This document shows positions 1 to 18,769 of a DNA stretch of 21,985 nt, piece after piece. Under the pieces are notes generated by a model that was given only the letters and a program-made list of their open reading frames with translations, did no database searches and had not been told where the DNA came from. The stretch spans positions 1 through 21,985 of the IMG/VR virus record IMGVR_UViG_3300048029_000361; one strand, written 5' to 3'. How positions within the stretch are numbered: position 1 is the stretch's first letter; the number at the start of each line of letters is the position of its first letter. Both the position numbers and the translations under genes were made by a program. The stretch comes from a virus.

Positions 1-282
1 TGCCAGATCATCACCCAGCGTACATATATCTTTTGTGAATACAAAGTCTGAATCAACAAATATAGCCCAGCCATTGTAGCCTTCCAAATGTGGTATTAGG
101 AAACGACTATAGGAAAAATCTGTACTACCTGTATCATTGCGCCAATATAATCCTTGCTCACGCAGTTCATCAGTTTTTAGATGTACAATGTCTACATCTA
201 CCTTAGCATGTTTATGAATACTATATTCACAAACTTTACTAGCGTCTTCTTGTTCTGGATCATATCCTATATAAATTCTCAT
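1..282 (-). CDS. Glycosyltransferase, GT-A/GT8-like, C-terminus cut by the window edge
   Basis: The minus strand reads open from an ATG at 282-280 to the window edge, giving 94 residues of N-terminal sequence. It starts MRIYIGYDP, followed by SYSRFLIPHL (residues 57-66) and FVDSDF (75-80). The Tyr-Ser-Arg-Phe segment followed by a DSD (DxD) motif after a hydrophobic strand is typical of nucleotide-sugar-dependent GT-A transferases such as family 8, where DxD holds the metal and sugar-nucleotide. The start overlaps the 3' end of the radical SAM gene upstream by 23 nt, so the two are probably translationally coupled and belong to the same late minus-strand operon. Donor and acceptor cannot be read from the sequence. 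The remainder of the gene lies outside the window. Confidence 0.75.
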   Translation of the reverse strand, partial: MRIYIGYDPEQEDASKVCEYSIHKHAKVDVDIVHLKTDELREQGLYWRNDTGSTDFSYSRFLIPHLEGYNGWAIFVDSDFVFTKDICTLGDDLA

Positions 283-1120
283 GCCAAAGTTTGGCGCTCC
301 CTTCTCCGCTTTTACAACCATTTGTATTACAGCCACTACATGCTGATAGGTCTTTTCTATTTGCTTCTAATAGTTGTTTGCGTACATATTTAAATTCATC
401 TGACATCCATATATTACTAAAGGTATCAGTGTTTATATTACCAAAGTCTTTCTGTTTTCTTGCCCAGTCATTACAGCATAATCCAACCCCGCCGTCCCAA
501 TCAACAAATGCTTTGTACATTGGCATCCAGCACTGTCTTTGCATAGACTTGACTGCACCTAACGTCCCACCTCGATTGTTAAAGTTGTATAGTTGCAACA
601 AGTTTGCATTGCCTGTGTCGTAATTGCTTCTTATACGTTGCTTACCCTCAAAGTCAGATAGCAATGTTTCCATTGCCATAGTCTGTTGTTCATTATCGTA
701 ACAGTCTACTATAATACTATGTAAACCATATGAAGTCAAATCCTTATGTGATATTCTTTTACTCAGTAACCGATCGCCATTGCTTATCATTTCAGTAAAA
801 AAATACCTGCTAAATTTACTTATTATTTCTAGAATGTCTGGATTTAATAGAGGCTCTCCCCACCCTGTAATATGTATATCACCTGTAAAATTTGCGTTGT
901 ATAGTTGTGTACTAAGTTTGTCTGCAATATCCACAGTCATATGTAACTTGCGATTAGGATAAATGTCTGGATCAGAACGTGGACAAAAACTACAAGTTCT
1001 GTTGCATAGCTCTGTTGGGTTAATTTCTACAGTTGCTAGTCCTAATAGTTGTGGGTTTGTTATGTCTGCTTCTGTATAGCGTTCACGACGATACGCTATA
1101 TGTACATTCATATCACTCAT
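260..1120 (-). CDS. Radical SAM protein with SPASM-like C-terminal domain
   Basis: This 286-residue protein has a radical SAM cluster motif CNRTCSFC (C39, C43, C46; CX3CX2C), which in this superfamily binds a 4Fe-4S cluster that cleaves S-adenosylmethionine. ITGWGEPLLNP (from residue 84) is the GGEP-type SAM-binding motif with Trp in place of one Gly. A Cys-rich tail (CW..., GLCCNDW, ACSGCNTNGC) resembles a SPASM or twitch auxiliary-cluster domain, found in enzymes that modify peptides or proteins, sugars and other substrates. The start overlaps the upstream gene by 4 nt (ATGA type) and the end overlaps a glycosyltransferase gene by 23 nt. The family is clear; the substrate is unknown. It is one of three SPASM/twitch-type radical SAM genes in the first 7.3 kb. 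Confidence 0.85.
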   Translation of the reverse strand: MSDMNVHIAYRRERYTEADITNPQLLGLATVEINPTELCNRTCSFCPRSDPDIYPNRKLHMTVDIADKLSTQLYNANFTGDIHITGWGEPLLNPDILEIISKFSRYFFTEMISNGDRLLSKRISHKDLTSYGLHSIIVDCYDNEQQTMAMETLLSDFEGKQRIRSNYDTGNANLLQLYNFNNRGGTLGAVKSMQRQCWMPMYKAFVDWDGGVGLCCNDWARKQKDFGNINTDTFSNIWMSDEFKYVRKQLLEANRKDLSACSGCNTNGCKSGEGSAKLWHENLYRI

Positions 1121-2073
1121 AAGTCTTTCCTAAACGAACTAATATTCCCTCTTGTATTTTGTATCATTCTTTCTTTTGTGGGATCTGTTTTATAGTCAGT
1201 GTCAACCAAACTTCTAGGGAAATGGTCGTATCCTTCAAACAGCCAACCATCTGCTTTACGTGTAAACATATATTCTCCCATGAGAAATTTATCTCCTTTG
1301 AATATAAGTTGTCCTACTAAACGCTTTGCTTGTTGTTCCATTGCTACTCTGTGTACAGCATCAACATAACTAAACGTAGGAAGTTGTAGTCTAAATTTAT
1401 CTGGATTACTTGTATATTTTTGGCTTTTACGTAACATTAATGCCATGCCTCTTGCCCAGGGTTCCATTTGTGGATTCTGATAACTGTAACCATCGTCTCC
1501 TTTTGTAAATACTGGCTCATCATAGTGCCAATTAAATGTGGGATGATCTGCATTTTCAAACTTGTCTGCTAGTTCTTGTGGAGACTTTATTACATCATGA
1601 TTCCTTGTCCAGTGCCAAGGACTTTGATTTACTTCAGGATACCAAATATAGAATAATGGAATACGTTCTAAATTAAGCATGAATACAGCAGATACTTTCT
1701 TATCACCACCTGGATGACATGTATAAAATCTACCATAGTCCTGTAGTTGCATTGGTTGCTGAATGCCTTTATCTCTAATGTCATACAATAACCATAATAT
1801 CTTTGCCATTCTGTATGTTAAATATAGATCCTCGTCATCACGCCAATTATCTCTAGGAGTTGTTGCAAGTTCTCTTCGCTTTTCTAATGGTATTTCTCTA
1901 AATGCATCTATGTCGCGACTGAATCCTCCCATTACTTCACCCATTCTTCCACTGATTGTGGTGCAATCAAGCAGGCTACGCAGTTCAAGACTACTTGCAT
2001 GTGTAAAGATTACCTGAGCTCGCCCTGTGGTCTGAGCCCAATCGAAGAATTTTTCGAGATTTTCTATTGACAT
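1117..2073 (-). CDS. Hypothetical protein, first gene of the minus-strand late operon
   Basis: This 318-residue protein is not recognised. It is soluble-looking, rich in Trp, Tyr and charged residues, with no signal peptide or membrane segment. Notable segments are YGRFYTCHPGGDKK (about residues 121-134), followed by a hydrophobic strand, and a run of short aromatic blocks (FYIWYPEV, SPWHWTRNHD, FNWHYDEP). The CHPGGDK segment faintly recalls the HPG-type motifs of ParB-like folds, but this is only a weak resemblance and not a call. The ATG at 2073 lies 38 nt downstream of a perfect T4-type late motif (2111-2118, minus strand). No good Shine-Dalgarno sequence is visible. It overlaps the radical SAM gene by 4 nt, so it may be a partner, substrate or substrate-binding protein of that enzyme (inference). 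Confidence 0.8.
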   Translation of the reverse strand: MSIENLEKFFDWAQTTGRAQVIFTHASSLELRSLLDCTTISGRMGEVMGGFSRDIDAFREIPLEKRRELATTPRDNWRDDEDLYLTYRMAKILWLLYDIRDKGIQQPMQLQDYGRFYTCHPGGDKKVSAVFMLNLERIPLFYIWYPEVNQSPWHWTRNHDVIKSPQELADKFENADHPTFNWHYDEPVFTKGDDGYSYQNPQMEPWARGMALMLRKSQKYTSNPDKFRLQLPTFSYVDAVHRVAMEQQAKRLVGQLIFKGDKFLMGEYMFTRKADGWLFEGYDHFPRSLVDTDYKTDPTKERMIQNTRGNISSFRKDL

Positions 2074-2092
2074 TTCGGGAGTTTTTCTATAT

Positions 2093-2100
2093 AATAAATA
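2093..2100 (+). promoter_or_regulatory. T4/cyanophage-type late promoter (plus strand)
   Basis: AATAAATA fits the cyanophage late consensus NATAAATA and differs from the T4 form at one base. By T4 spacing the start would be near 2106, about 25 nt before the ATG at 2131. The 5' leader contains TAGGAT (2121-2126) as a modest ribosome binding site. Confidence 0.6.
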
Positions 2101-2117
2101 AGTATACAGTTATTTAT
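2094..2117. repeat. Inverted repeat formed by the two late promoters
   Basis: Perfect 8-bp arms ATAAATAA (2094-2101) and TTATTTAT (2110-2117) flank the 8-bp centre GTATACAG. The arms are the two divergent late promoter elements themselves, so the repeat probably reflects back-to-back promoters rather than a separate operator. Confidence 0.7.
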
Positions 2118-2118
2118 A
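2111..2118 (-). promoter_or_regulatory. T4-type late promoter (minus strand)
   Basis: The minus strand reads TATAAATA, an exact match to the T4 late promoter -10 element (NATAAATA in cyanophages). By T4 spacing the start would fall near 2105, leaving a leader of about 32 nt before the ATG at 2073. It lies in a 57-bp intergenic gap between divergent operons. Confidence 0.7.
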
Positions 2119-2130
2119 CTTAGGATTTCC

Positions 2131-2763
2131 ATGAAAAAACGTATGCTGATTATGACTGGACCGCAGGGTTCCGGTAATCATTTGTTTAGTAAAATATTTG
2201 CCCTACATGATGAAGTTTATGGTTGGGAGAGTTTGCTCTATACATATTGGCAGGGCCATCAATATGAACCATTTTATGAATGCTGGCAGGATCCTGAGAT
2301 GTTGCATGATGTTGATTGGACACAATCAGATTATTATGTAACCAGTATAAGTTGTCCTTTTGTATATAAAGGCGAACAAACAATACCTAACTACAGAGAG
2401 TTTATTCGTGAAGCAAGTCATTACTGTGAAATACAATTAGCAGTAATTGGTAGAGATCAGAACATATTAGAAACACAACAGACAAGAGTAAGAGGTAAAC
2501 ACACAACACCACAAGCTCTTGACAAGTTGAAAAGTCTAGTCTACATGTACCCTACTAACTTCCTTAGCCAGGAACTATTGTATTTGTATAAAGACAAATA
2601 TTTGCAAAGCCTAGCAAAGGAGATGAACTGGCCTATATGTTGGTGGGAACAAGAGCTAGATAGTATCCTAAAAGAGGATGCGAACAAGAAGTATATAACA
2701 CCAGTTAAAGAACACTGGTTAGATAACGAAGTAAAGAAAGCAATAAAGGATAGTAAATGCTAG
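2131..2763 (+). CDS. P-loop NTPase fold protein, sulfotransferase/kinase-like
   Basis: This 210-residue protein begins MKKRMLIMTGPQGSGNHLFS, a beta strand followed by GPQGSGNH (residues 10-17). This resembles the PAPS-binding P-loop of sulfotransferases, or a Walker A variant, at the usual N-terminal place. No second motif (such as a clear Walker B) could be assigned with confidence. The rest is helical, ending in a Lys-rich tail. Family members transfer sulfate from PAPS or phosphate from ATP. It is the first gene of the plus-strand late operon, 31 nt from a late promoter element, and its 3' end overlaps the next gene by 7 nt. Being next to glycosyltransferases, sulfation or phosphorylation of a glycan or protein is possible (inference). 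Confidence 0.65.
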   Translation: MKKRMLIMTGPQGSGNHLFSKIFALHDEVYGWESLLYTYWQGHQYEPFYECWQDPEMLHDVDWTQSDYYVTSISCPFVYKGEQTIPNYREFIREASHYCEIQLAVIGRDQNILETQQTRVRGKHTTPQALDKLKSLVYMYPTNFLSQELLYLYKDKYLQSLAKEMNWPICWWEQELDSILKEDANKKYITPVKEHWLDNEVKKAIKDSKC

Positions 2764-3461
2764 ATGTTTTCATGCTCACGTTTGGTGAGCCAGAGGCAGA
2801 GGAGAACTTTGCACACTTACAAACCTTTGCACCAAATGCTAAACGTATTGATGGTGTAGAAGGATTACTTAATGCACATAAAGCCTGTGCAGAAGAATCA
2901 AATACTAAATATTTTTATGTATGTGATGCAGATGCTTGGATACAACCAAACTTCCAATTTAAGTTTGAACCAAGTAATACTAAAGAGGCTTACCCAGGTG
3001 TCAAAGAAACAGAGTGTGTGTTTACATATCGTAGTCATAACCCTATTAATGATCTCATATATGGATATGGTGCAGTCAAGTTGTTTCCCAAAAGAAACCT
3101 GTTGGATGTTAAAGAGTTCAAAGTAGACATGACCACAAGCATTGGTGCTAAGTTCAAACCTCTTTTTGAGATAAGTAATGTTACAGCATTTAATACTGAT
3201 CCATTTAATACCTGGCGCAGTGCATTTCGTGAATGTACAAAATTAGCAAGTGGTATAGTGGATCATAACAAGCAGACAGATGATAGTTATAGATTAGAAG
3301 TATGGTGTGAGCGTGGAGACAATCGCAAGTATGGCGAATATGCTTTACTAGGAGCTCAACAAGGTAGAGACTTTGGCACCCATTATAAAAACAACGTTGA
3401 AGCCTTACGTAGGATCAACGATTGGAATTGGTTGAAGGAGACATTTAGTGAAGCCCTCTGA
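2757..3461 (+). CDS. Glycosyltransferase-like protein (GT-A type, DxD)
   Basis: This 234-residue protein starts MLDVFMLTFGEPEAEENF, followed by a Rossmann-like arrangement and YFYVCDADAW (residues 52-61). There DAD (D57, D59) sits after a hydrophobic strand, the expected DxD metal and nucleotide-sugar site of GT-A glycosyltransferases. GYGAVKLFPK, further on, resembles the acceptor-side block of such enzymes, and FNTDPFNTWRSAFRECTKLASG is a helical segment after it. The ATG at 2757 overlaps the previous gene by 7 nt, and the 3' end overlaps the methyltransferase-like gene by 14 nt. It is short for a complete bacterial glycosyltransferase but of a size seen in phages. Donor and acceptor are unknown. 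Confidence 0.65.
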   Translation: MLDVFMLTFGEPEAEENFAHLQTFAPNAKRIDGVEGLLNAHKACAEESNTKYFYVCDADAWIQPNFQFKFEPSNTKEAYPGVKETECVFTYRSHNPINDLIYGYGAVKLFPKRNLLDVKEFKVDMTTSIGAKFKPLFEISNVTAFNTDPFNTWRSAFRECTKLASGIVDHNKQTDDSYRLEVWCERGDNRKYGEYALLGAQQGRDFGTHYKNNVEALRRINDWNWLKETFSEAL

Positions 3462-4512
3462 TTTTCAAGAACAACACCATTGGTTATGTGGACTAAGCGA
3501 ATACTTTCGTTTTACAGAAGCATATGATGATGACTTTGAATTAATATTTCGTGCTTTATACCACGATAACAAGTATAGGAAACGTGATCTATTAATTAAT
3601 ATGGCTAAGAAATATGCACGTAAAGAACTAAGTGGTATCGTTGAAGCACAAAAAGAAGAGATGTCCTCAAAGTTACAGAGCTTCTTTAATATTGCAATGC
3701 ATAGTGAGCTAGAAGATTACGATATTAAAGCACGTAGTCTTATAGGATTCCTTGCATGGTATATTCCTAACGAATCTCTAATACAACGAACAGCAAGGTT
3801 TATGGCCTACTTTGCAAACCAGGAATTAGACGTTCCTAACTTGGGTGACTTTTATAGTAGAGGACAGATACGTAGTAAAATTTGGTTGGTAACTGAACTG
3901 GCAAAAGTAATAGGCACAGAGCCTATAGGCAATGTAGTATTCTATGGAGGTTGGTATAATTTTATTGCACACTTCCTATTCGAACAGTTTAATGTACATA
4001 AGATCTATAGTATTGATGTAGATGAATCAGTAGTAGGTCCATGTAAAAGGTTGTATGCAGATGAACTTGATGATACAAAGTTTACTCCATACACAGCAGA
4101 TGTAAACAAACTTGTATGGCAAGGCAATCAGCTGAAGTTTATTGATAATGAACGTAGAGATCAACAGATAAAAGAATGGCATTTTGAGAATGATGAGAAG
4201 TTACAACAGGGTATTATATCTCAAGAAGATAAACAGAATGCTTATGATAACTTTGGTTGGAAACATATGAGTAACATTAACTTGGTGATCAATACAAGTT
4301 GTGAACACATGAACAATGAATGGTTTGAAAACTTACCAGCAGGAACACTTACAGTATTACATCAGAACGATTACTTTAGTAATGAACAGCATGTAAACTG
4401 TATGAAAGATATTGAAGACACAAAGGCAAAATATCCTATGTCAGAAATATATTATGAAGGCACATTGGATACACATCTATATAATCGCTTCATGCTTATA
4501 GGTAGAAAATGA
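3448..4512 (+). CDS. SAM-dependent methyltransferase-like protein (class I fold, C-terminal half)
   Basis: This 354-residue protein uses a GTG start at 3448, supported by AAGGAG at 3435-3440, 7 nt upstream. The first ~155 residues are helical. Then comes GNVVFYGGWYNFIAHFLFE (from 161), a strand-Gly-rich-helix unit like methyltransferase motif I. It is followed by IYSIDVDESV (187-196), the acidic-strand motif that would contact the SAM ribose, and LVINTSCEHM further on, a plausible motif IV. Motif I reads GGWYN rather than the common GxGxG, so the call rests on the overall pattern. It overlaps the following small gene by 4 nt. The target could be a protein, a glycan or a radical SAM product. 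No DNA methyltransferase motif (DPPY/PC) was seen. Confidence 0.6.
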   Translation: MKPSDFQEQHHWLCGLSEYFRFTEAYDDDFELIFRALYHDNKYRKRDLLINMAKKYARKELSGIVEAQKEEMSSKLQSFFNIAMHSELEDYDIKARSLIGFLAWYIPNESLIQRTARFMAYFANQELDVPNLGDFYSRGQIRSKIWLVTELAKVIGTEPIGNVVFYGGWYNFIAHFLFEQFNVHKIYSIDVDESVVGPCKRLYADELDDTKFTPYTADVNKLVWQGNQLKFIDNERRDQQIKEWHFENDEKLQQGIISQEDKQNAYDNFGWKHMSNINLVINTSCEHMNNEWFENLPAGTLTVLHQNDYFSNEQHVNCMKDIEDTKAKYPMSEIYYEGTLDTHLYNRFMLIGRK

Positions 4513-4769
4513 TACGACTTACGCATCATGTGGTTACTGACCATACCAAGCATCATCAAGGTATGCACTTTCCTGTGATGGATGCAATGGCACACCTTAC
4601 CTATCAACTTACTAAACAAGACTTTCATTACGGAACTGAATGGGATTTAAATGGTGTTGATACAAATGATAAAGGACAACGTGTAATAGAAATAGTATGG
4701 CATGTAGAACGTAAGGCAATGATAGTTACACTGTCTGGTGTTGAAACAATATATGGAGATCATAGATGA
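4509..4769 (+). CDS. Hypothetical small protein
   Basis: This 86-residue protein is not recognised. It has a His-rich N-terminus (THHVVTDHTKHHQGMHFP, residues 5-22: six His in 18), then a predicted beta-rich C-terminal half. The His cluster could bind metal, but no known motif is matched. It starts by ATGA overlap with the methyltransferase-like gene and ends with an ATGA overlap with the next, so it is embedded in the late modification operon. It may be an accessory or substrate-carrier protein of the neighbouring radical SAM enzymes (inference only). Confidence 0.6.
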   Translation: MIRLTHHVVTDHTKHHQGMHFPVMDAMAHLTYQLTKQDFHYGTEWDLNGVDTNDKGQRVIEIVWHVERKAMIVTLSGVETIYGDHR

Positions 4770-5044
4770 CAGATGAAATGGATGATGAACTATGGGAACT
4801 TACATTTGCAGAGTTTGATGAATACTTAGGCACATTAAAGACAAGAGAACTACAGCGAGAAGCGGCAAGAGCAATCAGCACAATGCCTGCAGACAATAAT
4901 AGTATTCATAAGTTTAACAAAGAAGCACATCACAATAGTCATATATGGTATAAAGCAGTTATAAAGCACTATGTATTTGAGCATGGTGGTATGCCCAGTG
5001 AAATAGGTCCTGGCAAAGATGTAAAGTTTGTATTAGATGTATAA
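4766..5044 (+). CDS. Hypothetical small acidic protein
   Basis: This 92-residue protein is not recognised. The N-terminus is strongly acidic (MTDEMDDELWELTFAEFDEY) and probably helical. The middle has REAARAISTMPADNNSIHKF and the C-terminal part is richer in His. It shows no signal peptide or membrane segment. It overlaps the preceding gene by 4 nt and the following radical SAM gene by 8 nt. Its size and tight coupling to a radical SAM gene would suit an accessory protein, but no peptide-recognition (RRE/PqqD-like) fold can be claimed from reading alone. Confidence 0.6.
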   Translation: MTDEMDDELWELTFAEFDEYLGTLKTRELQREAARAISTMPADNNSIHKFNKEAHHNSHIWYKAVIKHYVFEHGGMPSEIGPGKDVKFVLDV

Positions 5045-6128
5045 AGTAAGCGACATTAAAGAAGTGCATTTAGAAATTACACAGCGTTGTAATGCGGCCT
5101 GTCCTATGTGTGATCGTAATCACAATGGTGGTGAGGTTAACAGACACATAAGAGGTGCTGAACAGGAACTATCGCTTGAAGATATAATGGTTATCTTCCC
5201 TCCTGATTTTATTAAGCAGTTAAAGACAATGTATATGTGTGGTAACTTAGGTGATCCTATTAGTGCAAGAGATACATTAGAAGTATTCCGTTATTTCAGA
5301 GAATGCAATCCTAACATTTGGTTAAGCATGAATACAAATGCAGGTGCTCGTGATGCAGAGTGGTGGGCTGATGTTGCAAAAGCAATTGGTAAAATGGGTT
5401 GTGTAATATTCAGTGTTGATGGATTAGAAAATACAAACCATTTGTATAGGCAGAATGTACGTTGGGAATTCGTAGAGCGTAACATGAAAGCATTTATCAA
5501 TGCAGGTGGCAGAGCAAGATGGGATTACTTAATATTTGAACACAGTGAATGTGATGTAGAACGTGCTGAACAGCTCGCTAAGGAGTGGGGTGTAGAACGT
5601 TTTATGAAAAAGAAGACAGGACGTTTTATTAAAAGTACATCACATGAAGCAAAGACAGAACATCAGTCAGTTAATCGCAAGGGTAAAGAAACACAGAAGC
5701 TCGCAAAGCCTAAGAAGGCAGAGCATCAGAACCTTGCATTAGCAAAGATGAAAGAGATTGAAAAGACATATGGTAGTATGATGGAGTACTACAATAAAGC
5801 CTCTATTAGTTGTAAGATTCTAAAAGACATGAGTGTATTCGTAACAGCAGAAGGACTTGTTTTGCCTTGCTGTTGGACAGCAGGTCGTATGTATAAATGG
5901 TGGCACGAAGACTATCGTGCTGAACAAATATGGGATTTCATAGATAGAGCTGGTGGTAAAGATGCAATAAACGCTAAGTACTTTGGTATAGAAGGCGTGT
6001 TTGAATCTGGCATTATGGAAGACATAAAACGTAGTTGGAAAATTGAGAGTATTAAGTCCGGTAAGTTAGGTGTTTGTGCCCAGAAGTGTGGTACAGAATT
6101 CGATCCTTTCGGAGCTCAATTTACATGA
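5037..6128 (+). CDS. Radical SAM protein with SPASM-like domain
   Basis: This 363-residue protein has an N-terminal radical SAM core with CNAACPMC (C18, C22, C25) following the strand VHLEITQR. MYMCGNLGDPI takes the place of the GGEP motif, and FSVDGLENTNHLYRQNV is the typical SxDG block of SPASM radical SAM enzymes. A Lys-rich, low-complexity stretch (about residues 195-240) precedes the C-terminal part, which carries VFVTAEGLVLPCCW, a SPASM/twitch signature. Further Cys are at the end (CAQKCGTEF). SPASM radical SAM enzymes typically modify peptides, proteins or sugars by radical chemistry. It overlaps its upstream neighbour by 8 nt and ends in ATGA with the next radical SAM gene, so the two are likely made together. 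Confidence 0.85.
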   Translation: MYKVSDIKEVHLEITQRCNAACPMCDRNHNGGEVNRHIRGAEQELSLEDIMVIFPPDFIKQLKTMYMCGNLGDPISARDTLEVFRYFRECNPNIWLSMNTNAGARDAEWWADVAKAIGKMGCVIFSVDGLENTNHLYRQNVRWEFVERNMKAFINAGGRARWDYLIFEHSECDVERAEQLAKEWGVERFMKKKTGRFIKSTSHEAKTEHQSVNRKGKETQKLAKPKKAEHQNLALAKMKEIEKTYGSMMEYYNKASISCKILKDMSVFVTAEGLVLPCCWTAGRMYKWWHEDYRAEQIWDFIDRAGGKDAINAKYFGIEGVFESGIMEDIKRSWKIESIKSGKLGVCAQKCGTEFDPFGAQFT

Positions 6129-7333
6129 ACCTAGAAACTTATTGTCCTATACCATTTTCTGAAATGTTTATTCGTCCTGACGGCAGAGTTTTAATCTGTT
6201 GTGATACACAAAAGGCAGTTGGTAATGTAAATAGTACCTCACTATCGGAAATATTTTACAGTAATTTCTTACAAGATGTACGTAAAACATTTAAGAACGG
6301 TGAGCGACATAGGATATGTAACAAGTGTTGGGATAGAGAAGATAAGATAGGCGACAGTTTTAGAAGTAGCCATAATCAAGATGGTAGTATTGAAATGCTA
6401 TCTGGAAACAAATATACTAACTACAAAGACTTTGCACAACATGCAACAACAAGAATACGTAAAATAAAAGTAGACTTCAGCAATGCATGTAATATGAAAT
6501 GCCCAATGTGCAATATAGCAAGAAGCACAGGATGGTTAAAAGATTGGGAAAAGTTTAACGGAGTATTTAAAAGCAGTACAGATGCGGATGTAAATTATTT
6601 AAACAGGCCTCTTAATGAACAAGCAATGGTTGAAACAGTTGCACAGTTGCCTATTAGTTTTATAGATGATAATTGGGAACACTTTATAAATGCTAACCTA
6701 ATAGATCTGTCAGGAGGCGAACCATTTTATATGCCACAAGTGAAATATTTACTTGACAGACTGGAAAAAGAACGTTATAATGGAGTATTAAAAGTTATAA
6801 CAAACGCAAGTTTAATAGAACCTTTTATAGATAAGTTAGCGAAGTTTAATTGTAAACTTGTTATAAGTTGTGATGCACACGGAGAAGACTTATATCCAAT
6901 AGCAAGACCTAGTGTAGGCAAAACAATTAGTTGGCAAAAGTTTACAGATAATTTAAAGTTATTACGTGAAGCAAAAGTAGGACATGGATTTTGTTACGTA
7001 CCACAGTTAATGAATATCCATAATATTGAGGACTGGTTAGATTGGGTAGATGAGAATTATGATTCTGATGTAAACAAGTTAGGATTACCGCTCTACAGAC
7101 CCAATCATTTAAGAATAGAACATTATCCTAATGAGGATTACAAACATAAACTAGCAGAAAGATTAGAGCATAGGCATTGGAGTAGGTTTGATGCACATAA
7201 CTTTAGAGCTTTAATACAACAGTTAAGGATGCCGGCAGTGGCAGAACATTACGAAACATTTCTAACTTACATGGCCAGGTTAGATGAATTACGAAACACA
7301 AATTTTATGGCCATTTGGGCAGAAAATACTTGA
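6125..7333 (+). CDS. Twitch-type radical SAM protein with Cys-rich N-terminal domain
   Basis: The chosen start is the ATG at 6125, inside the ATGA overlap with the previous gene, giving 402 residues; a non-ATG start at 6074 would lengthen it by 17. The N-terminus has the SPASM/twitch pattern first: FIRPDGRVLICCDTQ (C25, C26), then ICNKCWDRE (C65, C68). The radical SAM core follows: CNMKCPMC (C122, C126, C129) and LIDLSGGEPFYMPQ. Normally the auxiliary domain follows the core, so the order here is permuted, a layout found in so-called twitch-domain radical SAM proteins. The TGA stop (7331-7333) lies inside the -35 hexamer of the next promoter, and a consensus-like promoter lies inside the gene at 6753-6781. 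The substrate is unknown. Confidence 0.85.
   Translation: MNLETYCPIPFSEMFIRPDGRVLICCDTQKAVGNVNSTSLSEIFYSNFLQDVRKTFKNGERHRICNKCWDREDKIGDSFRSSHNQDGSIEMLSGNKYTNYKDFAQHATTRIRKIKVDFSNACNMKCPMCNIARSTGWLKDWEKFNGVFKSSTDADVNYLNRPLNEQAMVETVAQLPISFIDDNWEHFINANLIDLSGGEPFYMPQVKYLLDRLEKERYNGVLKVITNASLIEPFIDKLAKFNCKLVISCDAHGEDLYPIARPSVGKTISWQKFTDNLKLLREAKVGHGFCYVPQLMNIHNIEDWLDWVDENYDSDVNKLGLPLYRPNHLRIEHYPNEDYKHKLAERLEHRHWSRFDAHNFRALIQQLRMPAVAEHYETFLTYMARLDELRNTNFMAIWAENT
6753..6781 (+). promoter_or_regulatory. Perfect sigma70-consensus promoter inside the twitch radical SAM gene
   Basis: TTGACA (6753-6758), a 17-bp spacer and TATAAT (6776-6781). All 12 positions match the consensus at optimal spacing. It lies about 600 bp upstream of the clamp gene. 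It is intragenic, so function is uncertain; it may be fortuitous or an extra early promoter for the clamp operon. Confidence 0.45.
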
Positions 7334-7358
7334 CATTTTCTAAATATAATCATATACT
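7330..7358 (+). promoter_or_regulatory. Sigma70-type (early) promoter of the clamp-dpdA operon
   Basis: TTGACA (7330-7335), a 17-bp spacer and TATACT (7353-7358). It sits in the 57-bp gap before the clamp gene, with AAGGAG (7377-7382) and the ATG (7391) downstream. The -35 hexamer contains the TGA stop of the gene upstream. The match (11 of 12) and position make it the best-supported promoter in the window. Confidence 0.75.
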
Positions 7359-7390
7359 TAACATAATCAAAACATAAGGAGACTCTAAGT

Positions 7391-8143
7391 ATGAGTACAG
7401 TTAAAGACGCAGTACAAGATATTGTACGTATGACAGCAGGTCTTGGCTTTATCAATGCCGTTAAGGTGACTGGTAGCGATAGTGAAACAACACTAGATGC
7501 TATGGACACTGAGCGTACAGTTATTGTAAAGGCAAGCCTACACAATCCAATTAATGAATTCACTGGTGAGTTTGGACTAGGCAATCTTGGCTTCCTAGCA
7601 GGCGTAACTAATCTTCCTAACTATAAGGAAGACAGTGCATCAATCGCAGTTGTAGGCAGAGAACGTAATGGTGTTGAAACACCTGATCATTTGTTGTTTA
7701 CTGATGTAGATGGTAACACTGACCAATATAGGTTTATGAGTAAAGAAATTATTGAACAGACACTACAAACTGTGAAGTTCAAAGGCACTGATTGGGACGT
7801 AACATTTGAGCCCACAAAGGCAAAGGTAAGTGAGCTTACACAAGTTGCAGGTATCTATGGTGGTATTGAGCCTAACTTTACAGTAAAGACTGAAGATAGC
7901 AATCTTATTATTACAGTAGGTGCAAGTGATGGATCGCTTACAGGTAAACGTACATTTGCTCATAACATTGAAGGTGAACTTAATGAAGGTTATGCATGGC
8001 CACTGACACAAGTACTTGCTATCCTTAAACTTGGTATGTCAGGTCATTGTGTTATGCAGATCTCAAAGCGAGGTGCTTTGCAGATTAGCATTGATACAGG
8101 CATTGGCAAGTATGACTATATTCTTCCAGCATTGACGGTATAA
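7391..8143 (+). CDS. 45: Sliding clamp (DNA polymerase processivity factor), T4 gp45-like
   Basis: This 250-residue protein has the length and layout of T4 gp45 (228 residues). There are two beta-rich halves, with an FTGEFGLGNLGFLAGVTNL segment comparable to the gp45 DLNGFLGILSLV block. The second half (KVSELTQVAGIYGGIEPNFTV ... LNEGYAWPLTQVLAILKLG) matches the gp45 pattern of a helix, the strand pair and a final beta strand (YDYILPALTV). The trimeric clamp encircles DNA, tethers the phage polymerase and, in T4, is needed for late transcription. It has its own promoter (7330-7358) and ribosome binding site (AAGGAG). dpdA follows with no gap. Identity to T4 is low by eye, so the call rests on pattern and context. 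Confidence 0.7.
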   Translation: MSTVKDAVQDIVRMTAGLGFINAVKVTGSDSETTLDAMDTERTVIVKASLHNPINEFTGEFGLGNLGFLAGVTNLPNYKEDSASIAVVGRERNGVETPDHLLFTDVDGNTDQYRFMSKEIIEQTLQTVKFKGTDWDVTFEPTKAKVSELTQVAGIYGGIEPNFTVKTEDSNLIITVGASDGSLTGKRTFAHNIEGELNEGYAWPLTQVLAILKLGMSGHCVMQISKRGALQISIDTGIGKYDYILPALTV

Positions 8144-9643
8144 ATGGCACATAAAGTAAATTTAACAGAACGTAATAAGGACTATTCTGTATTCCTGCCT
8201 AGCATTAGTAGTTTCTATGATAGAACTATTAGCAGGTACCGCGAGCAAGGTGATTCATTCTTTCCCCCCGAACGAATCCCTGCTCGCTTTGAAGACGGTC
8301 TAGATGGGTGTGACTTCCTAAAGCAAGATGCATACTACACTTACAAGTGGGGTTTGTATAGTGCTGGTCACGCCCAGCTAGATTTGTCAAAGGCAGACAA
8401 GCACGATAATATGGTGCAAGAAAGAGATAGGCCTAATACTTTTATACTTGGTGACTCAGGTGGTTTCCAGATTATTAAAGGTGTGATACAATGTGACTGG
8501 GCTAACTTTAAAAGTGATGATAGCCTCAGGCATACTATTTTAAATTGGTTAGAACATACTGCTGATTACAGTATGATTCTAGATATTCCTACAATGGCGG
8601 CAAGTGAACCTTATAAGCAAAAGACAGGCATTAAGGACTTCCGTCAGTGTTTGGATTATACATTACATAATTGTAATTGGTTCGTAAAGAACCGTAAAGG
8701 TAATACAAAGTATCTAAATGTTTTACAAGGTAGAGATAAAGCAGAGGCAGATACTTGGATTGATACAGTAAAGCATCTTCCGTTTGAAGGCTTTGCATTT
8801 GGTGGTGCTACAAAGTATGACATCAACATTATGCTACATCACTTACTTAAACTTCGTGATGAGAAGTTATTAGAAAAAGGTGAGCGTGATGTGCTACACT
8901 TCCTTGGTACAAGTAAACTGGATTGGGCAGTTGCATTGACAGCGGTTAAGCGAGCCCTACGTGAAACAGTTAACGAGGATATTGAAGTCATGTTTGATTG
9001 TGCATCTCCTTTTATTGCGACAGCAAAAGGACAGATGTATACTCAGCACGTTCATAAGTCAGATAGGTTTGGCTATGTTATGGATAGTGCGATTGATGAT
9101 AAGCGACTAGCAGGTACAGACATTCAGTTTCCGTGGACAAGTCCTATTGGTGATAGGCTTTCAATGGGAGATGTTTGTTGGTATAAGCCAGGTATGCTTA
9201 ATAAAATTGGCAAAGAAGGCAAAACAAGTTGGGATAGTCTAACTTACTTCTTGCTAATGGCTCACAATGTATATCAACATATTGAATCTGTACAACGTGC
9301 AAATGAACTTGTTGATGCAGAGATGCAGATGCATAGTTTACAACATAAGCATTGGCGTAAACTAAAGAGCAGTAGCAAAGAAGAACAGTTTAGTCCTTGG
9401 GTGCCACGTGATATTCTATACATCACACAGTTTATTCAGGACTTGTTTAAAAGTGAAACTCCTTACAGTATGTTAGAAGAGGCGGCTCCAATGCTTGCTA
9501 ACTTTAATGGTAAGAAGACACTTGCTACAAGCACAAATAGTTTTAACAGCCTGTTTGAAGTAGAGGTTGAAGAGCTTGATAGTGATACTGAATTTACTAC
9601 AGAGGATGAAGAAGAGGCACATCAACTACTGGAGACGGTATAA
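8144..9643 (+). CDS. dpdA: DpdA/Tgt-like DNA-guanine transglycosylase
   Basis: This 499-residue protein has the TIM-barrel motifs of tRNA-guanine transglycosylases in order: LGDSGGFQI (D104, base recognition), MILDIPTMAA (D147), YLNVLQGR (190-197), GFAFGGATK (216-224), HFLGTSKLD (252-260) and VMFDCASPF (D285, expected nucleophile). The zinc-binding CxCxxC block of bacterial Tgt was not seen, as in the DpdA proteins that insert 7-deazaguanine into DNA instead of tRNA. The C-terminal ~25 residues are very acidic (VEVEELDSDTEFTTEDEEE). Known phage DpdA enzymes exchange guanine in DNA for preQ0 or a derivative and protect against restriction. The gene starts immediately after the clamp stop. The queD-like and folE genes downstream and queE further on support this role. 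Confidence 0.85.
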   Translation: MAHKVNLTERNKDYSVFLPSISSFYDRTISRYREQGDSFFPPERIPARFEDGLDGCDFLKQDAYYTYKWGLYSAGHAQLDLSKADKHDNMVQERDRPNTFILGDSGGFQIIKGVIQCDWANFKSDDSLRHTILNWLEHTADYSMILDIPTMAASEPYKQKTGIKDFRQCLDYTLHNCNWFVKNRKGNTKYLNVLQGRDKAEADTWIDTVKHLPFEGFAFGGATKYDINIMLHHLLKLRDEKLLEKGERDVLHFLGTSKLDWAVALTAVKRALRETVNEDIEVMFDCASPFIATAKGQMYTQHVHKSDRFGYVMDSAIDDKRLAGTDIQFPWTSPIGDRLSMGDVCWYKPGMLNKIGKEGKTSWDSLTYFLLMAHNVYQHIESVQRANELVDAEMQMHSLQHKHWRKLKSSSKEEQFSPWVPRDILYITQFIQDLFKSETPYSMLEEAAPMLANFNGKKTLATSTNSFNSLFEVEVEELDSDTEFTTEDEEEAHQLLETV

Positions 9644-9837
9644 TGGTAACACTCGAAAAGCTCGAGAATAGAATCAAGGCACTAGAAGCTAGACATAGAG
9701 CACTTGACAAAAACATAGCTGACATGTATACTGAAGGCTATGAAGATCTAGCACAAATGAAGAAAGACAAGTTAACTCTAAAAGACGAGATTAACACACT
9801 TAAACAAAGGAGAAGTGAACATGGCCAAGAAAATTAG
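9643..9837 (+). CDS. Small coiled-coil protein, DUF465/YdcH-like
   Basis: This 64-residue protein is almost entirely heptad-like helix: VTLEKLENRIKALEARHRA, followed by LDKNIADMY and LKDEINTLKQRR. The pattern (LExxHxxLDxxI ... LKxxKLxLKDEI) is that of the DUF465/YdcH family, whose function is not known. It starts at the TAATG junction with dpdA (1-nt overlap) and overlaps the next gene's start by 17 nt. It may be an oligomerising partner of its neighbours (inference). An internal promoter candidate lies at 9704-9732. Confidence 0.7.
   Translation: MVTLEKLENRIKALEARHRALDKNIADMYTEGYEDLAQMKKDKLTLKDEINTLKQRRSEHGQEN
9704..9732 (+). promoter_or_regulatory. Internal sigma70-type promoter candidate
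   Basis: TTGACA (9704-9709), a 17-bp spacer and TATACT (9727-9732), the same hexamers and spacing as the clamp promoter. It lies inside the coiled-coil gene and would serve the queD-like to folE genes. An intragenic position weakens the call. Confidence 0.5.
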
Positions 9838-10006
9838 GCTCATGGATGAACCAGACAAAACTACTGAAGAAGGCGTTATCTCCAAAGACATCACAATGGA
9901 CAGTGAAACTATTGAGAAGTTTATGAAGTACGCAGAAGCAATGGATTGGAAGCTCTGGGAAATTCTAAAAATCTTACGTAAACAAACTGGTGAAGAGCAG
10001 GAGTAA
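9821..10006 (+). CDS. Hypothetical small charged protein
   Basis: The ATG at 9821 was chosen because AAAGGAG at 9806-9812 lies 8 nt upstream; a GTG at 9815 would add two residues. The 61-residue product (MAKKIRLMDEPDKTTEEG...) is hydrophilic, with a C-terminal half likely to form a helix (FMKYAEAMDWKLWEILKIL). It is not recognised. It sits between the coiled-coil gene and the queD-like gene, 2 nt upstream of the latter, in the deazaguanine operon. Confidence 0.65.
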   Translation: MAKKIRLMDEPDKTTEEGVISKDITMDSETIEKFMKYAEAMDWKLWEILKILRKQTGEEQE

Positions 10007-10008
10007 TT

Positions 10009-10392
10009 ATGCAACCAACAAAAAGAATGATCTGGGTTAAGTTTGCAAAGGAAGGCATTCATAAATATCCAGCCGCCCTTGAAGATCCTAACCTAGCAAC
10101 AGGTGATGAATATGATGTATCCTTTTTGGGTTATCCACATAGACACATCTTTCATTTTAAGGTAGCAATTGAAGTATTTCATGATGATAGAGATATTGAA
10201 TTCATCCAGTTTAAACGTTGGTTGGAAAAACTATACAGTGAAAAAACTCTTGAACTAGACTACAAATCATGTGAGATGATTGCTGAAGCACTAGCATTTC
10301 AAATTCACAAAAAGCATCCAGGACGCGACATTGAGATTACAGTGTCTGAAGATGACGAAAACGGCGCAACACTAACATTCAAAGGAAATTAA
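10009..10392 (+). CDS. queD: QueD/6-pyruvoyl-tetrahydropterin synthase-like protein
   Basis: This 127-residue protein has the length and block order of 6-carboxytetrahydropterin synthase (QueD, ~120 residues). KEGIHKYP (H18) and PHRHIFHFKVAIEV (H44, H46) give the three zinc-binding His. DIEFIQFKRWLEKLY corresponds to the QueD 'DFxxLK' block, SCEMIAEALAFQI to the 'TSExLA' block, and ITVSED (E114) to the conserved Glu. QueD converts the FolE product (dihydroneopterin triphosphate) to 6-carboxytetrahydropterin, the substrate of QueE. The catalytic Cys expected just before the HxH block is absent, and no equivalent of the second catalytic His is evident. The chemistry may therefore differ. The position between dpdA and folE supports a pathway role. 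Confidence 0.65.
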   Translation: MQPTKRMIWVKFAKEGIHKYPAALEDPNLATGDEYDVSFLGYPHRHIFHFKVAIEVFHDDRDIEFIQFKRWLEKLYSEKTLELDYKSCEMIAEALAFQIHKKHPGRDIEITVSEDDENGATLTFKGN

Positions 10393-10393
10393 G

Positions 10394-10720
10394 ATGAGTG
10401 TTTTTATTTCAGGTTCTTATAACCTACAGGATATCAAGTTTGATCTTCTAAAGGTTATGAAGCCATATGATGGCTACATGTTTAATGAAGCCGACACAGT
10501 AAAGGTTACTGGATTGTTTCAAGCATTCCTAGGTGATCTTAAGAAAGCACATAAAGTTTATGCTTTCAACATTGTAAGTAGCGACAAAGAAAATGCCGTT
10601 ACTTTCGATATTAGTGTACAGATCCACAGAGATCGTACTCCTAAGAAACTTAAAATCCATGTAGGAAGATTGCAGTACGCAGTGAAACCTACTGGGTGGT
10701 TGGAAATGTTTGCTACATGA
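10394..10720 (+). CDS. Hypothetical protein
   Basis: This 108-residue protein is not recognised. It has alternating hydrophobic strands and basic segments (FNIVSSDKENAVTFDISVQI, HRDRTPKKLKIHVGRLQYAV), suggesting a small alpha/beta or beta fold with a basic face that could touch nucleic acid. It starts one base after the queD-like stop, with AAAGGA about 8 nt upstream, and overlaps the glycosyltransferase start by ATGA. Its place between deazaguanine genes suggests a part in the same process; nothing in the sequence proves it. Confidence 0.65.
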   Translation: MSVFISGSYNLQDIKFDLLKVMKPYDGYMFNEADTVKVTGLFQAFLGDLKKAHKVYAFNIVSSDKENAVTFDISVQIHRDRTPKKLKIHVGRLQYAVKPTGWLEMFAT

Positions 10721-11772
10721 TATATGTAGTAGACATAGAGGCTGTGGACACACGTTACACAGCCCAATGGAAGACTCATCTTCCGGTTCAGTTAAAAAAT
10801 AAAACGAACCAGAAGGTGAAGGTAATTAGCGGAGGAGAAATTCCACATGCCACTACGCCGGGTGCGTTCCTCAACTTCGGAGGAACCAATGTTTACAAGT
10901 CAAACCAACTACAACAAATTGCCACACTATTTTGCGAAGGTAAAATACATGATGGTGATTATTTTCTGTATACAGATGCTTGGAATCCTACTGTCATTCA
11001 GTTACGATACATGGCCAGCCTACTTAATATCGATATTACTATCGGGGGCATGTGGCATGCAGGTAGTTATGATACACAGGATTTTCTCGGCAGACTAATT
11101 GGAGATGCTAAGTGGGTTAGACATGCTGAAATGTCAATGTATGAATGTTATGATGATAACTTCTTTGCTACAGACTTTCACATTGATATGTTTACAGATG
11201 CATTTGATGAAAACTATGCATTAGACCCAGACAAAATGCATCGTGTGGGTTGGCCTATGGAATATCTTACAGAGATCCTCAGCCATCATAATCCAGACAG
11301 CAAAGAAAATATTGTGTTATTCCCACATAGGATTGCACCTGAGAAACAACATGATATTTTTGTAGACCTTGCTAATAGTTTTCCTGACTATGAGTTTATT
11401 ACTGCTCAGGAAAAACAATTAACAAAGAATGAATATCACGAATTGCTTGCAAAAAGTAAAATGGTGTTTAGTGCAAACCTACAGGAAACACTAGGCATTA
11501 GTTGGTATGAAGGTGCTCTATTAGGAGCAACGCCTTTTGTGCCAGACAGATTGTCATATAGTGAGATGGCTATTCCAGAAGTACTCTATCCAAGTGAATG
11601 GACAGAGAGCTTTGATGCATATCTAGAACACAAAGACGAGCTCGTATTGCACATGAAAACGCTATTAGAAAGCAATAATCACCCTGAAATAAGCCAAAAA
11701 GTAGTAAATACTCTTACGGACTTCTTTTGTGGTGATAAATTATACAACAAAATAAAGGAACAAAGTACATGA
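10717..11772 (+). CDS. GT-B fold glycosyltransferase (GT4/GT1-like)
   Basis: The ATG at 10717 (ATGA overlap with the previous gene) was chosen over an earlier possible start at 10696, giving 351 residues. The C-terminal half has the GT-B donor-binding layout: NIVLFPHRIAPEKQHDIFVD, then FPDYEFITA, KSKMVFSANLQETLGIS and YEGALLGATPFVPDR. This matches the 'E-x7-E' and Gly-rich region that binds nucleotide-sugars in family 4-like transferases. The N-terminal half has DYFLYTDAWNPTVIQLRYM and MWHAGSYDTQDFLGRLIGD, a long conserved-looking block. It lies between the queD-like and folE genes, so it might decorate the modified base or phage DNA (inference; T4 DNA glucosyltransferases are also GT-B), or act elsewhere. 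Confidence 0.75.
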   Translation: MIYVVDIEAVDTRYTAQWKTHLPVQLKNKTNQKVKVISGGEIPHATTPGAFLNFGGTNVYKSNQLQQIATLFCEGKIHDGDYFLYTDAWNPTVIQLRYMASLLNIDITIGGMWHAGSYDTQDFLGRLIGDAKWVRHAEMSMYECYDDNFFATDFHIDMFTDAFDENYALDPDKMHRVGWPMEYLTEILSHHNPDSKENIVLFPHRIAPEKQHDIFVDLANSFPDYEFITAQEKQLTKNEYHELLAKSKMVFSANLQETLGISWYEGALLGATPFVPDRLSYSEMAIPEVLYPSEWTESFDAYLEHKDELVLHMKTLLESNNHPEISQKVVNTLTDFFCGDKLYNKIKEQST

Positions 11773-12461
11773 GAAAGACTTCCGATAAGATCCGTGAGAG
11801 ATTAGAAGCTAACAACGTTAGGTATTGGGCTAACGACAACATTGCTGATTACATTGAAGAAGGTGAAAAGCAAGAATTAATTGACGAGGCAACAGAGGCA
11901 TTTGAGAACGTATTGCAACATTTGTTGATTGACACAAAGACAGATCCTAATAGTATGGATACTGGCAGACGTATGGCTAAGATGTATATCAATGAGATTA
12001 TGTCTGGTAGATATGATCCTATGCCCAACCCAAGTAGTTTTCCAAATTATATTGAAGGTGGCTATGAAGGCATGTTGGTTGTTAGAAGTGAACTTACTAG
12101 CCTGTGTTCGCACCATCACCAAACAGTGAGAGGTGTGGCATACATAGGTATTATTGCAGGTCCTAAACTATTAGGATTGAGTAAGTATACTCGTATCGCA
12201 CAGTGGTGTGCCATGCGAGGGACATTGCAAGAAGATCTAAATGTTATGATCGCAAATGCAATTCAAAAAGAAACTGGAACAGAGCACGTAGGTGTTTATG
12301 TTCAGGCAACACATGGTTGTTGCGAAAACAGAGGCATTAGAGCCCATAGCAGTTTGACACAGACTACGGTGTTGCGTGGTTCTTTCAAGGAGGACGCAGT
12401 CAAGAAAGAATTTATTGACAATGTAAAACTCCAACAAGAGTATAGTACAACGCAACGTTAG
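11769..12461 (+). CDS. folE: GTP cyclohydrolase I (FolE)
   Basis: This 230-residue protein matches FolE (E. coli 222 residues). DTGRRMAKMYINEIMSG (from 64), LTSLCSHHHQTVRGVAYIG (C113, H115-H117), LLGLSKYTRIAQWCAMRGT, LQEDL, and ATHGCCENRGI (C184/C185) are the family blocks. C113, H116 and one of C184/C185 would bind the zinc, and the His pair supports opening of the guanine ring. FolE turns GTP into 7,8-dihydroneopterin triphosphate, the first step shared by folate and deazaguanine synthesis. Beside dpdA and queD-like genes, a deazaguanine role is likely. It overlaps the glycosyltransferase gene by ATGA. Confidence 0.93.
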   Translation: MRKTSDKIRERLEANNVRYWANDNIADYIEEGEKQELIDEATEAFENVLQHLLIDTKTDPNSMDTGRRMAKMYINEIMSGRYDPMPNPSSFPNYIEGGYEGMLVVRSELTSLCSHHHQTVRGVAYIGIIAGPKLLGLSKYTRIAQWCAMRGTLQEDLNVMIANAIQKETGTEHVGVYVQATHGCCENRGIRAHSSLTQTTVLRGSFKEDAVKKEFIDNVKLQQEYSTTQR

Positions 12462-12470
12462 AAAGGAGGT
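12462..12470 (+). promoter_or_regulatory. Near-perfect Shine-Dalgarno site
   Basis: AAAGGAGGT, matching the anti-Shine-Dalgarno sequence over 8-9 bases, begins one base after the folE stop and lies 5 nt before the ATG at 12476. It is clearly stronger than most sites in the window, implying high translation of the small membrane protein. Confidence 0.7.
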
Positions 12471-12475
12471 ATCAA

Positions 12476-12706
12476 ATGGATATTCTTAAAACAGTAAAAG
12501 GATGGGCATCAGCCCTAGCAGATGTAGGTATTTCAATAGCCGCTCTTATGTTGGTTCTTGAGGTGCTTGGTCTAGGAGCAATTCCGTTCTTACCAGAAGT
12601 GAGTATTATAGCAAACGTTTCAGCTATGCTTAATACACTTGGCGCAGAAGGCCTAATGGGCTTAGTCGCAATCTGGATACTTTATGCAATATGGAATAAG
12701 AAGTAA
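12476..12706 (+). CDS. Small membrane protein
   Basis: This 76-residue protein has two hydrophobic spans: about residues 15-40 (LADVGISIAALMLVLEVLGLG..IPFL) and 57-72 (GLMGLVAIWILYAIW). They are joined by a loop with one acidic residue (PEVSIIANVSAMLNTLGAEG), and the protein ends in a Lys pair. The amphipathic N-terminus and two spans resemble small inner-membrane phage proteins, but no holin signature can be claimed. Translation is driven by a near-perfect ribosome binding site. A stem-loop follows 13 nt after the stop. Function unknown. Confidence 0.7.
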   Translation: MDILKTVKGWASALADVGISIAALMLVLEVLGLGAIPFLPEVSIIANVSAMLNTLGAEGLMGLVAIWILYAIWNKK

Positions 12707-12719
12707 AATTCGTAAACCA

Positions 12720-12744
12720 GAGGAGGGACTTTGAGTCCTTCCTC
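12720..12744 (+). promoter_or_regulatory. RNA stem-loop between small membrane and Lys-rich genes
   Basis: An 11-bp stem with one G-U pair: GAGGAGGGACT (12720-12730), loop TTG, AGTCCTTCCTC (12734-12744). No U-tract follows on the plus strand, so it is not a classic intrinsic terminator. It may be a transcript-stability hairpin, a processing site or a weak attenuator in the 55-nt gap. Confidence 0.6.
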
Positions 12745-12761
12745 ACTTAAAGGAGATTATA

Positions 12762-12941
12762 ATGTTAAATTGGTTTAAAAAAGCAATGGGTATTACACCC
12801 AAAGAAGCAGTTAAAGATTTAGAGGAGCCAAAGAAAGACGGCACAACTACAAGTCCTGTAGTAATTAAGGCGGCACCAAAAAAGACACGTAAAAAAGCCG
12901 CACCTAAAAAGAAAGCAACCATCAAAAAAGGTAAAAAGTAA
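12762..12941 (+). CDS. Small Lys/Ala-rich basic protein, histone H1-like tail
   Basis: This 59-residue protein reads MLNWFKKAMGITPKEAVKDL and then a mixed middle, ending in a tail of Lys, Ala and Pro (KAAPKKTRKKAAPKKK, then KKGKK). It resembles histone H1-type or other disordered nucleic-acid-binding tails. AAAGGAG at 12749-12755 lies 6 nt before the ATG, and it ends in TAATG (1-nt overlap) with the next gene, which supports it as a real gene despite its length. It may bind DNA or RNA non-specifically (inference). No known family assigned. Confidence 0.75.
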   Translation: MLNWFKKAMGITPKEAVKDLEEPKKDGTTTSPVVIKAAPKKTRKKAAPKKKATIKKGKK

Positions 12942-13135
12942 TGGCTGATCCATTTGATAATATGAGCTATAGCTTCATATTCAATCAACCATACGAACCA
13001 TTCAATTTTGATATTAATGATGAGATGACTAAGTTGGATCTCATTGATATGGTTGTTGAATGTATGGATGAAGAATATCCTGAAGCTGAAGAATTACTTA
13101 AACCTATCATAGAAAGCGTTAATAAAAATGACTAA
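12941..13135 (+). CDS. Small acidic hypothetical protein
   Basis: This 64-residue protein is not recognised and is acidic (MADPFDNMSYSFIFNQPYEP, then DINDEMTKLDLIDMVVE, ending in EEYPEAEELLKPIIESVNKND). The second half is likely helical. It starts by 1-nt overlap with the basic protein and overlaps the phosphoribosyltransferase gene by 8 nt. The acidic-beside-basic pairing might form a complex, but this is speculation. Confidence 0.6.
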   Translation: MADPFDNMSYSFIFNQPYEPFNFDINDEMTKLDLIDMVVECMDEEYPEAEELLKPIIESVNKND

Positions 13136-13858: not shown

Positions 13859-13863
13859 GCAAA

Positions 13864-17481: not shown

Positions 17482-17510
17482 CAGTATGTTAATCTTACAT
17501 GGAGTAAATT

Positions 17511-18766: not shown

Positions 18767-18769
18767 TTT

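Follow-up and report, generated by a model that had tools for sequence, protein, structure and literature searches.

The window analysed here, a stretch of 21,985 nucleotides of viral DNA, contains a cassette whose heart is a set of four genes in conserved order, encoding a glycosyltransferase (GT, 2757-3461), a methyltransferase (MT, 3448-4512), a small protein (u92, 4766-5044) and a radical SAM protein (rSAM_B, 5037-6128), all on the plus strand. Our leading, still tentative reading is that this set belongs to a virus-specific biosynthetic operon for a pathway that builds and tailors a glycoconjugate early in infection. The cluster appears to be undescribed so far, and no account of the cassette was found in the literature searched on radical SAM proteins in connection with virions or tail fibres of phages, with jumbo phages or with AMGs.

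Ten open reading frames were confirmed in the region, at the places given by the first-pass annotation. Two divergent, translationally coupled operons flank an intergenic region of 57 bp, and neighbouring genes within each operon overlap by 4-14 bases. The minus operon begins with a 318-aa protein (1117-2073, minus strand), conserved in 12 loci, for which no match was found in cultured phages and no family match in profile searches. It is followed by rSAM_A (260-1120, minus strand), a radical SAM protein with a C-terminal SPASM domain, and by a GT8-like glycosyltransferase (1-336, minus strand; phrog_28018, 1.7e-17; weak Pfam GT8 match), which is cut by the window edge; the parent contig, of 60 kb, has the whole protein of 252 aa. 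The plus operon opens with an accessory P-loop-like protein (2131-2763), present in 17 loci. A sulfotransferase or kinase had been suggested for it, and the P-loop-like motif GPQGSGNH is indeed present, but no family match supports the more specific name, nor was any match found in cultured phages. Besides the four core genes, the plus operon includes u86 (4509-4769), a small accessory protein conserved in 17 loci of the first set, and rSAM_C (6125-7333), a variable accessory radical SAM protein with an N-terminal twitch.

To describe the spread of the core we used 91 virus loci, dereplicated by 90% rSAM_B clusters. GT and MT are each present in 89 of them and u92 in 73, always upstream of rSAM_B and always in that order; core genes co-occur in 89/91 loci, far beyond chance. 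Among loci anchored on u92, GT is found in 79/79, MT in 77/79 and rSAM_B in 77/79, and no u92 was detected apart from the cassette in any sampled locus. In seven loci GT and MT are fused into one protein, and these fusions, together with the near-constant adjacency of the two genes, suggest that they act in one pathway. The core is under strong purifying selection (dN/dS about 0.07-0.11 between the window and a relative, L006). The linkage in related phages on which the first-pass annotation had staked its proposal thus holds for the core, whose genes are not scattered, and a biosynthetic or modification-type cluster is supported.

No ortholog of GT, MT, u92 or rSAM_B was found in 50,697 cultured-phage records, and judging from such comparisons the four-gene set seems nearly absent from the cultured phages searched. 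The best explanation is that its carriers are uncultivated marine T4-like or jumbo-like phages and that the operon is virus-specific. By a search for gp23, roughly half of the large contigs with the cassette were classed as T4-like; gp23 was not found in the parent contig of the window or in its closest relatives. In the window phage the cassette occupies the stretch between the usual positions of DNA polymerase and sliding clamp, in the replication module, while in many other phages it comes directly after genes for tail fibres or putative structural proteins, and its occurrence in these two settings suggests that it travels as a unit.

The GT-A-like character assigned to the 234-aa GT is borne out by its predicted GT-A fold (AlphaFold pLDDT 88) and by the motif D57-A58-D59 (DAD), invariant in the alignment. 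Among its Foldseek matches are the GT-A enzymes RmlT (the best, E 7e-5), WrtF and TarP; the similarity is remote, with a TM-score of about 0.4, some of the matches are peptide glycosyltransferases, and no CAZy or Pfam family could be assigned. The AlphaFold model of MT (pLDDT 91) gave 431 PDB matches in Foldseek at E<=0.001, and the top 50 are mostly methyltransferases. The methyltransferase-like label is therefore supported at the level of predicted fold, as a class I SAM methyltransferase with a Rossmann-like fold; the N-terminal domain is divergent and helical. A sequence-profile search against solved structures returned nothing useful for MT, GT or rSAM_B, and for u92 only compositional or chance matches.

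All three radical SAM proteins have a canonical CxxxCxxC motif, at C39 in rSAM_A (CNRTCSFC), C18 in rSAM_B (CNAACPMC) and C122 in rSAM_C, and all pass the Pfam Radical_SAM cut-off (PF04055; 33.1, 33.8 and 45.7 bits, respectively, against 29.5). They had been described as SPASM/twitch proteins, and here the picture is more uneven: rSAM_A and rSAM_C pass the Pfam SPASM cut-off, whereas rSAM_B has no match to PF13186 (SPASM) but shows a twitch-like pattern towards its C-terminus, CX13GX4C...CX3C, invariant in 26 sequences. Nor are the three equivalent, rSAM_B being core, rSAM_A present in only few relatives and rSAM_C a member of a variable accessory family. The last matches NF033640 (N_Twi_rSAM), a model that names no function, with 220.2 bits against a cut-off of 170 over residues 4-400 of 402, while rSAM_A and rSAM_B fall far below that cut-off and represent separate families.

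Radical SAM enzymes catalyse reactions that rank among the most difficult in biology, and to our knowledge cells seldom devote many genes to one radical SAM family. The four-gene set often has long rows of additional radical SAM genes after it. Each of the 20 large cassette contigs holds 3-25 N-twitch (NF033640) matches, and all 20 have matches over the cut-off; none over it was found in 14 well-known cellular genomes. The arrays also hold a carbamoyltransferase with two Pfam domains and, in some phages, a cupin between u92 and rSAM_B, genes that commonly accompany glycan tailoring. A constant core can be set against variable arrays, as the glycoconjugate reading would have it: rSAM_B is 62-88% identical across phages, and rSAM_C shares only 25-27% identity with its nearest counterpart in close relatives. 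Among distant members rSAM_B (62% identity) is more conserved than the clamp (43%), and for this reason a fixed small-molecule or partner substrate fits as well as a glycan.

Late T4-type promoters had been proposed for both operons, and this holds for one of them only. The minus operon is preceded by the late motif TATAAATA (2118-2111, minus strand), 38 nt before the start codon; the motif occurs once in the window, where 2.84 are expected by chance, and is found upstream of the 318-aa gene in 3/6 dereplicated relatives. Upstream of the plus operon we found only AATAAATA, one mismatch away from TATAAATA and overlapping a perfect sigma-70 promoter (TTGACA-N17-TATAAT, 2067-2095, plus strand, 12/12 positions). 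This promoter class recurs upstream of GT and P-loop genes in relatives, with 33 of 122 GT upstream regions of dereplicated relatives carrying it against 0.6 in shuffles, as well as in 7/10 sliding-clamp upstream regions; in a structural-gene family of the same phages TATAAATA was found in 4/12 and no sigma-70 match. A further sigma-70-like site (TTGACA-N17-TATACT, 7330-7358, plus strand, 11/12) precedes the sliding-clamp gene (7391) in the window and marks the end of the cassette. Given the perfect site, repeated in relatives, we rejected the late-promoter reading of the plus operon, which leaves the argument from timing to virion-protein targets unsupported. As far as promoter motifs can tell, early expression of this operon is more likely than expression during virion assembly. 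The over-represented 8-mers upstream of genes were mostly ribosome-binding or coding words.

In the glycoconjugate pathway as we envisage it, host RNA polymerase would transcribe the plus operon from the sigma-70 promoter early in infection. The soluble GT-A enzyme could then move a sugar onto an acceptor, and MT, sometimes fused to it, may methylate the same intermediate. rSAM_B with its small partner u92 would introduce a fixed radical change, for example an oxidation, an epimerisation or the formation of a C-C bond, after which the variable N-twitch radical SAM proteins and other enzymes would add phage-specific decorations. The product would most likely be a glycoconjugate on the infected-cell surface or on virion parts, and the resulting diversity may act against receptor competition, superinfection or recognition by the host. 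Next to the cassette, where most neighbours are unannotated, we recognised no genes for a lipid carrier or for export. A bolder version, which we regard as doubtful, is that the fixed core makes a glycosylated scaffold, possibly peptide-derived, to which each lineage brings diversity through as many as about 25 N-twitch enzymes, in an essentially virus-only pathway with no described counterpart. Should the product be a glycan of the cell surface or the virion, it would hint at an extensive, still uncharted level of recognition chemistry between phages and their hosts in the ocean; a small molecule would be a virus-made natural product. Whichever the product, the four-gene core is a compact set for expression and testing.

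Modification of the virion itself, with tail-fibre or other structural proteins being glycosylated, methylated and radically modified, seems to us rather unlikely. The position of the cassette after tail-fibre or putative structural genes in many phages would agree with it, as would the late motif of the minus operon (rSAM_A and the GT8-like gene), and enzymes made early persist, so that virion targets are compatible even with an early promoter. However, the promoter of the main operon is of the early type, the window phage carries the cassette in its replication module, and none of the structural gene families accompanies it consistently. Modification of phage DNA, in which sugars and other groups would be attached to the bases that the adjacent 7-deazaguanine genes (DpdA/FolE/QueE) put in place, is suggested by the presence of FolE, QueE and DpdA-like genes and by the location of the cassette in the window, directly before the clamp and DpdA. 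We hold it to be very improbable, since DpdA was found in only 13/20 large cassette contigs and not in the other seven, one of 243 kb (contigs may be incomplete), and in contig G024 it lies about 50 kb from the cassette. Moreover, the Pseudomonas jumbo phage PA5oct (Arenbergviridae), which shares with the window the order clamp-DpdA...QueE...exonuclease, has DNA polymerase genes in front of the clamp, a position taken by the cassette in the window phage, and no cassette was detectable in PA5oct. A role in defence or counter-defence was also considered and dropped; PADLOC gave only partial pVip-like (viperin-like) radical SAM matches, with E from 1e-9 to 1e-6.

A peptide-derived glycosylated product could also be imagined, following the logic of mycofactocin, with u92 as precursor or carrier, rSAM_B as maturase, and GT and MT glycosylating and methylating the product. 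The combination of radical SAM maturase, glycosyltransferase, methyltransferase and small protein recalls MftB/C/F/M, enzyme classes being shared with MftC, MftF and MftM (PMC11778925); u92, of about 90 aa, overlaps rSAM_B and is confined to the cassette in the sampled loci, and 19/26 rSAM_B sequences match the mycofactocin maturase model weakly. We nevertheless consider this quite unlikely, as all reported matches to maturase models, TIGR03962 or other named families, are far below cut-off (TIGR04317, for example, 48.3 against 380 bits), u92 lacks a variable core region, and neither an MftA-like precursor nor a peptidase gene was recognised. A PqqD-like carrier of the MftB type was likewise not found, u92 matching no PqqD-like model in Pfam.

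Among known phage gene clusters, the closest are the host-recognition or LPS-type hypervariable clusters of pelagimyophages, which carry GT8 and radical SAM cassettes (PMC7029224), and the radical SAM cluster of Pelagibacter phage Mosig. In these clusters genes for glycosyltransferases, radical SAM proteins, carbamoyltransferase and methyltransferase lie near tail-fibre genes. They have, however, no ortholog of GT, MT or u92 and only a 26%-identity radical SAM protein; descriptions of them mention no fixed core of four genes, and the window cassette lies instead in the replication module. Many radical SAM genes, 12 in all, are also reported from a single marine T4-like virus genome, TARA_ERS488813_N000010 (PMC5332604); the passage of that paper on these genes treats them only as Fe-S proteins and describes no cassette, families or promoters. 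The cassette contigs studied here hold up to 25 N-twitch matches each, compared with those 12.

The window, a 21,985-base IMG/VR virus fragment, is included whole, at essentially 100% identity, in a 60-kb contig (IMGVR_UViG_3300022074_004529, here G001) that runs past both its ends, and all ten open reading frames previously claimed for the cluster were found in it. On the plus strand a P-loop-like gene (2131-2763), the glycosyltransferase gene GT (2757-3461), the methyltransferase gene MT (3448-4512), u86 (4509-4769), u92 (4766-5044), rSAM_B (5037-6128) and rSAM_C (6125-7333) overlap in succession by 7, 14, 4, 4, 8 and 4 bases, and on the minus strand a 318-aa gene (1117-2073) and rSAM_A (260-1120) overlap by 4. 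These overlaps imply that the ten genes would form two divergent, translationally coupled operons around a 57-bp intergenic region.

For the core genes, the linkage proposed by the first-pass annotation was confirmed by a co-occurrence check in related phages. Scanning 2.9 million viral contigs gave 164 stretches for rSAM_B, at least 579 for MT and 566 for u92, and the best 80 of each were examined. Clustering rSAM_B at 90% identity left 102 loci, 91 of them with at least 5 kb upstream; in these GT and MT each accompany rSAM_B in 89 and u92 in 73, upstream on the same strand in the order GT-MT-u92. Around u92, GT was found in 79/79 loci, MT in 77/79 and rSAM_B in 77/79, and around MT an rSAM_B was recognised within 6 kb in 59/77; since the loci are the best-scoring ones, all these fractions apply to relatives at near and middle distance and not to the full range of distant homologs. 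Between the window and a relative (L006), dN/dS of the core genes is about 0.07-0.11.

The predicted fold of the 234-aa GT (AlphaFold pLDDT 88) and its remote similarity by Foldseek to RmlT, WrtF, TarP and SunS/ThuS make it a GT-A-type glycosyltransferase; its DAD motif is invariant in the alignment. The 354-aa MT (pLDDT 91), earlier called methyltransferase-like, is by predicted fold a class I methyltransferase, and in seven loci of the first set it forms a single protein with GT. Its N-terminal region is helical and in other phages takes the form of repeats of about 21 residues (type DLRKAVxExNxHSLFRLL), seen in the N-terminal half of MT in one phage group (L056:3-2888, L045:3177-4844 and similar). 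The short, conserved u92 matched no family model.

Three SPASM/twitch radical SAM proteins had been claimed. Pfam finds Radical_SAM and SPASM domains in rSAM_A and rSAM_C, and rSAM_C belongs over its full length to the N-terminal-twitch family NF033640. In rSAM_B the radical SAM core is present but the SPASM Pfam model finds no match; its twitch-like cysteines (C259-X13-G-X4-C278 and C347-X3-C351) are invariant. NF033640 matches over the cut-off occur in all 20 large cassette contigs, 3 to 25 per contig, and one (G007) carries 15 such proteins and four of the rSAM_B superfamily within 110 kb. In close relatives the nearest rSAM_C-like gene is 25-27% identical and rSAM_B 76-88%; the N-twitch arrays are variable between phages. 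A protein that looks amidinotransferase-like by eye (WSEFQPLKRVVLG; G007 60675-61760, L256:675-1760) lies within a 25-kb radical SAM array and has no Pfam match at E 0.001.

Among 50,697 cultured-phage records, tblastn gave no match for the GT, MT, u92, P-loop-like or 318-aa proteins, one partial match (26%, Pelagibacter phage Mosig) for rSAM_B and two 26% matches (Vibrio phages) for rSAM_C. When 84,980 genomes of bacteria and archaea were scanned by pattern, three metagenome-assembled contigs matched, and these may be viral. T4 gp23 is present on half of the large cassette contigs.

The motif TATAAATA is enriched 17-fold immediately before the genes of these phages, so they probably have a T4-type late motif. 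The late promoters earlier assigned to the cluster hold for the minus operon, upstream of which lies the only TATAAATA of the window, but not for the plus operon, which has a perfect sigma-70 site (2067-2095). Allowing at most one mismatch in upstream regions of dereplicated relatives, sigma-70 sites precede GT in 33/122 (0.6 in shuffles), the clamp in 7/10 and FolE in 5/11; before structural family c14 they number 0/12, with TATAAATA in 4/12, and before the 318-aa gene 0/6, with TATAAATA in 3/6. The divergent region thus most probably brings together one operon of early type and one of late type. The early role of sigma-70 promoters is established for T4 and is carried over here to T4-like phages.

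Where relatives lack the cassette, the sliding clamp is preceded, directly or nearly so in most, by a DNA polymerase of family B; in window-type phages the cassette takes that position instead (the clamp follows at 7391). Another contig, G024, has a polymerase-clamp region free of the cassette, which lies about 50 kb off, after tail-fibre genes. The cassette is therefore a unit of varying settings, and no single setting suffices for inferring its target. Downstream in the window stand a 7-deazaguanine set of DpdA-like (8144-9643), FolE (11769-12461) and QueE-like (17701-18666) genes and, accompanying it (8144-19852), the SAM synthetase gene metK (18770-19852), present also in 9 of the 20 large cassette contigs; the order clamp-DpdA-QueE-exonuclease is the same in Pseudomonas jumbo phage PA5oct.

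This analysis documents the order of the genes, the folds and motifs, the fusions, the sequences of the promoters and the selection; for the pathway, we propose that GT would transfer a sugar, MT would methylate the same intermediate, rSAM_B with u92 would perform a fixed radical step, and the N-twitch arrays with accessory enzymes, such as a carbamoyltransferase, would diversify the product. The most economical reading is a glycoconjugate on the host surface or virion; below it we rank readings centred on virion proteins, on a peptide-derived product and on DNA. Mycofactocin, made by the same classes of enzyme, serves as an analogy only: the features that define its type were looked for in the cassette and not found. 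Several radical SAM genes in one marine T4-like genome are already on record (PMC5332604), as are radical SAM and glycosyltransferase cassettes in pelagimyophage host-recognition regions (PMC7029224); our literature search found no account of the GT-MT-u92-rSAM_B core, its proteins or promoters, although one may exist elsewhere.

Outside the window, the minus strand of G001 encodes a protein with a CHASE2 sensor (E 1e-38) and a class III adenylate/guanylate cyclase domain (E 1e-15; 42357-44405, L252:2357-4405); a related family of about 680 aa was seen at seven loci, and a sensory cyclase encoded by a phage would be unusual. A FecR-domain protein lies close by (45611-46726). The same strand carries a flavin-dependent tryptophan halogenase family protein (6450-7967, L250; Pfam E 4e-92) and, at 50251-52918 (L252), a TctA tricarboxylate-transporter gene (Pfam E 3e-76) adjoined by a secreted protein, possibly the partner binding protein; genes like those of the TctA region were seen in other cassette phages too.
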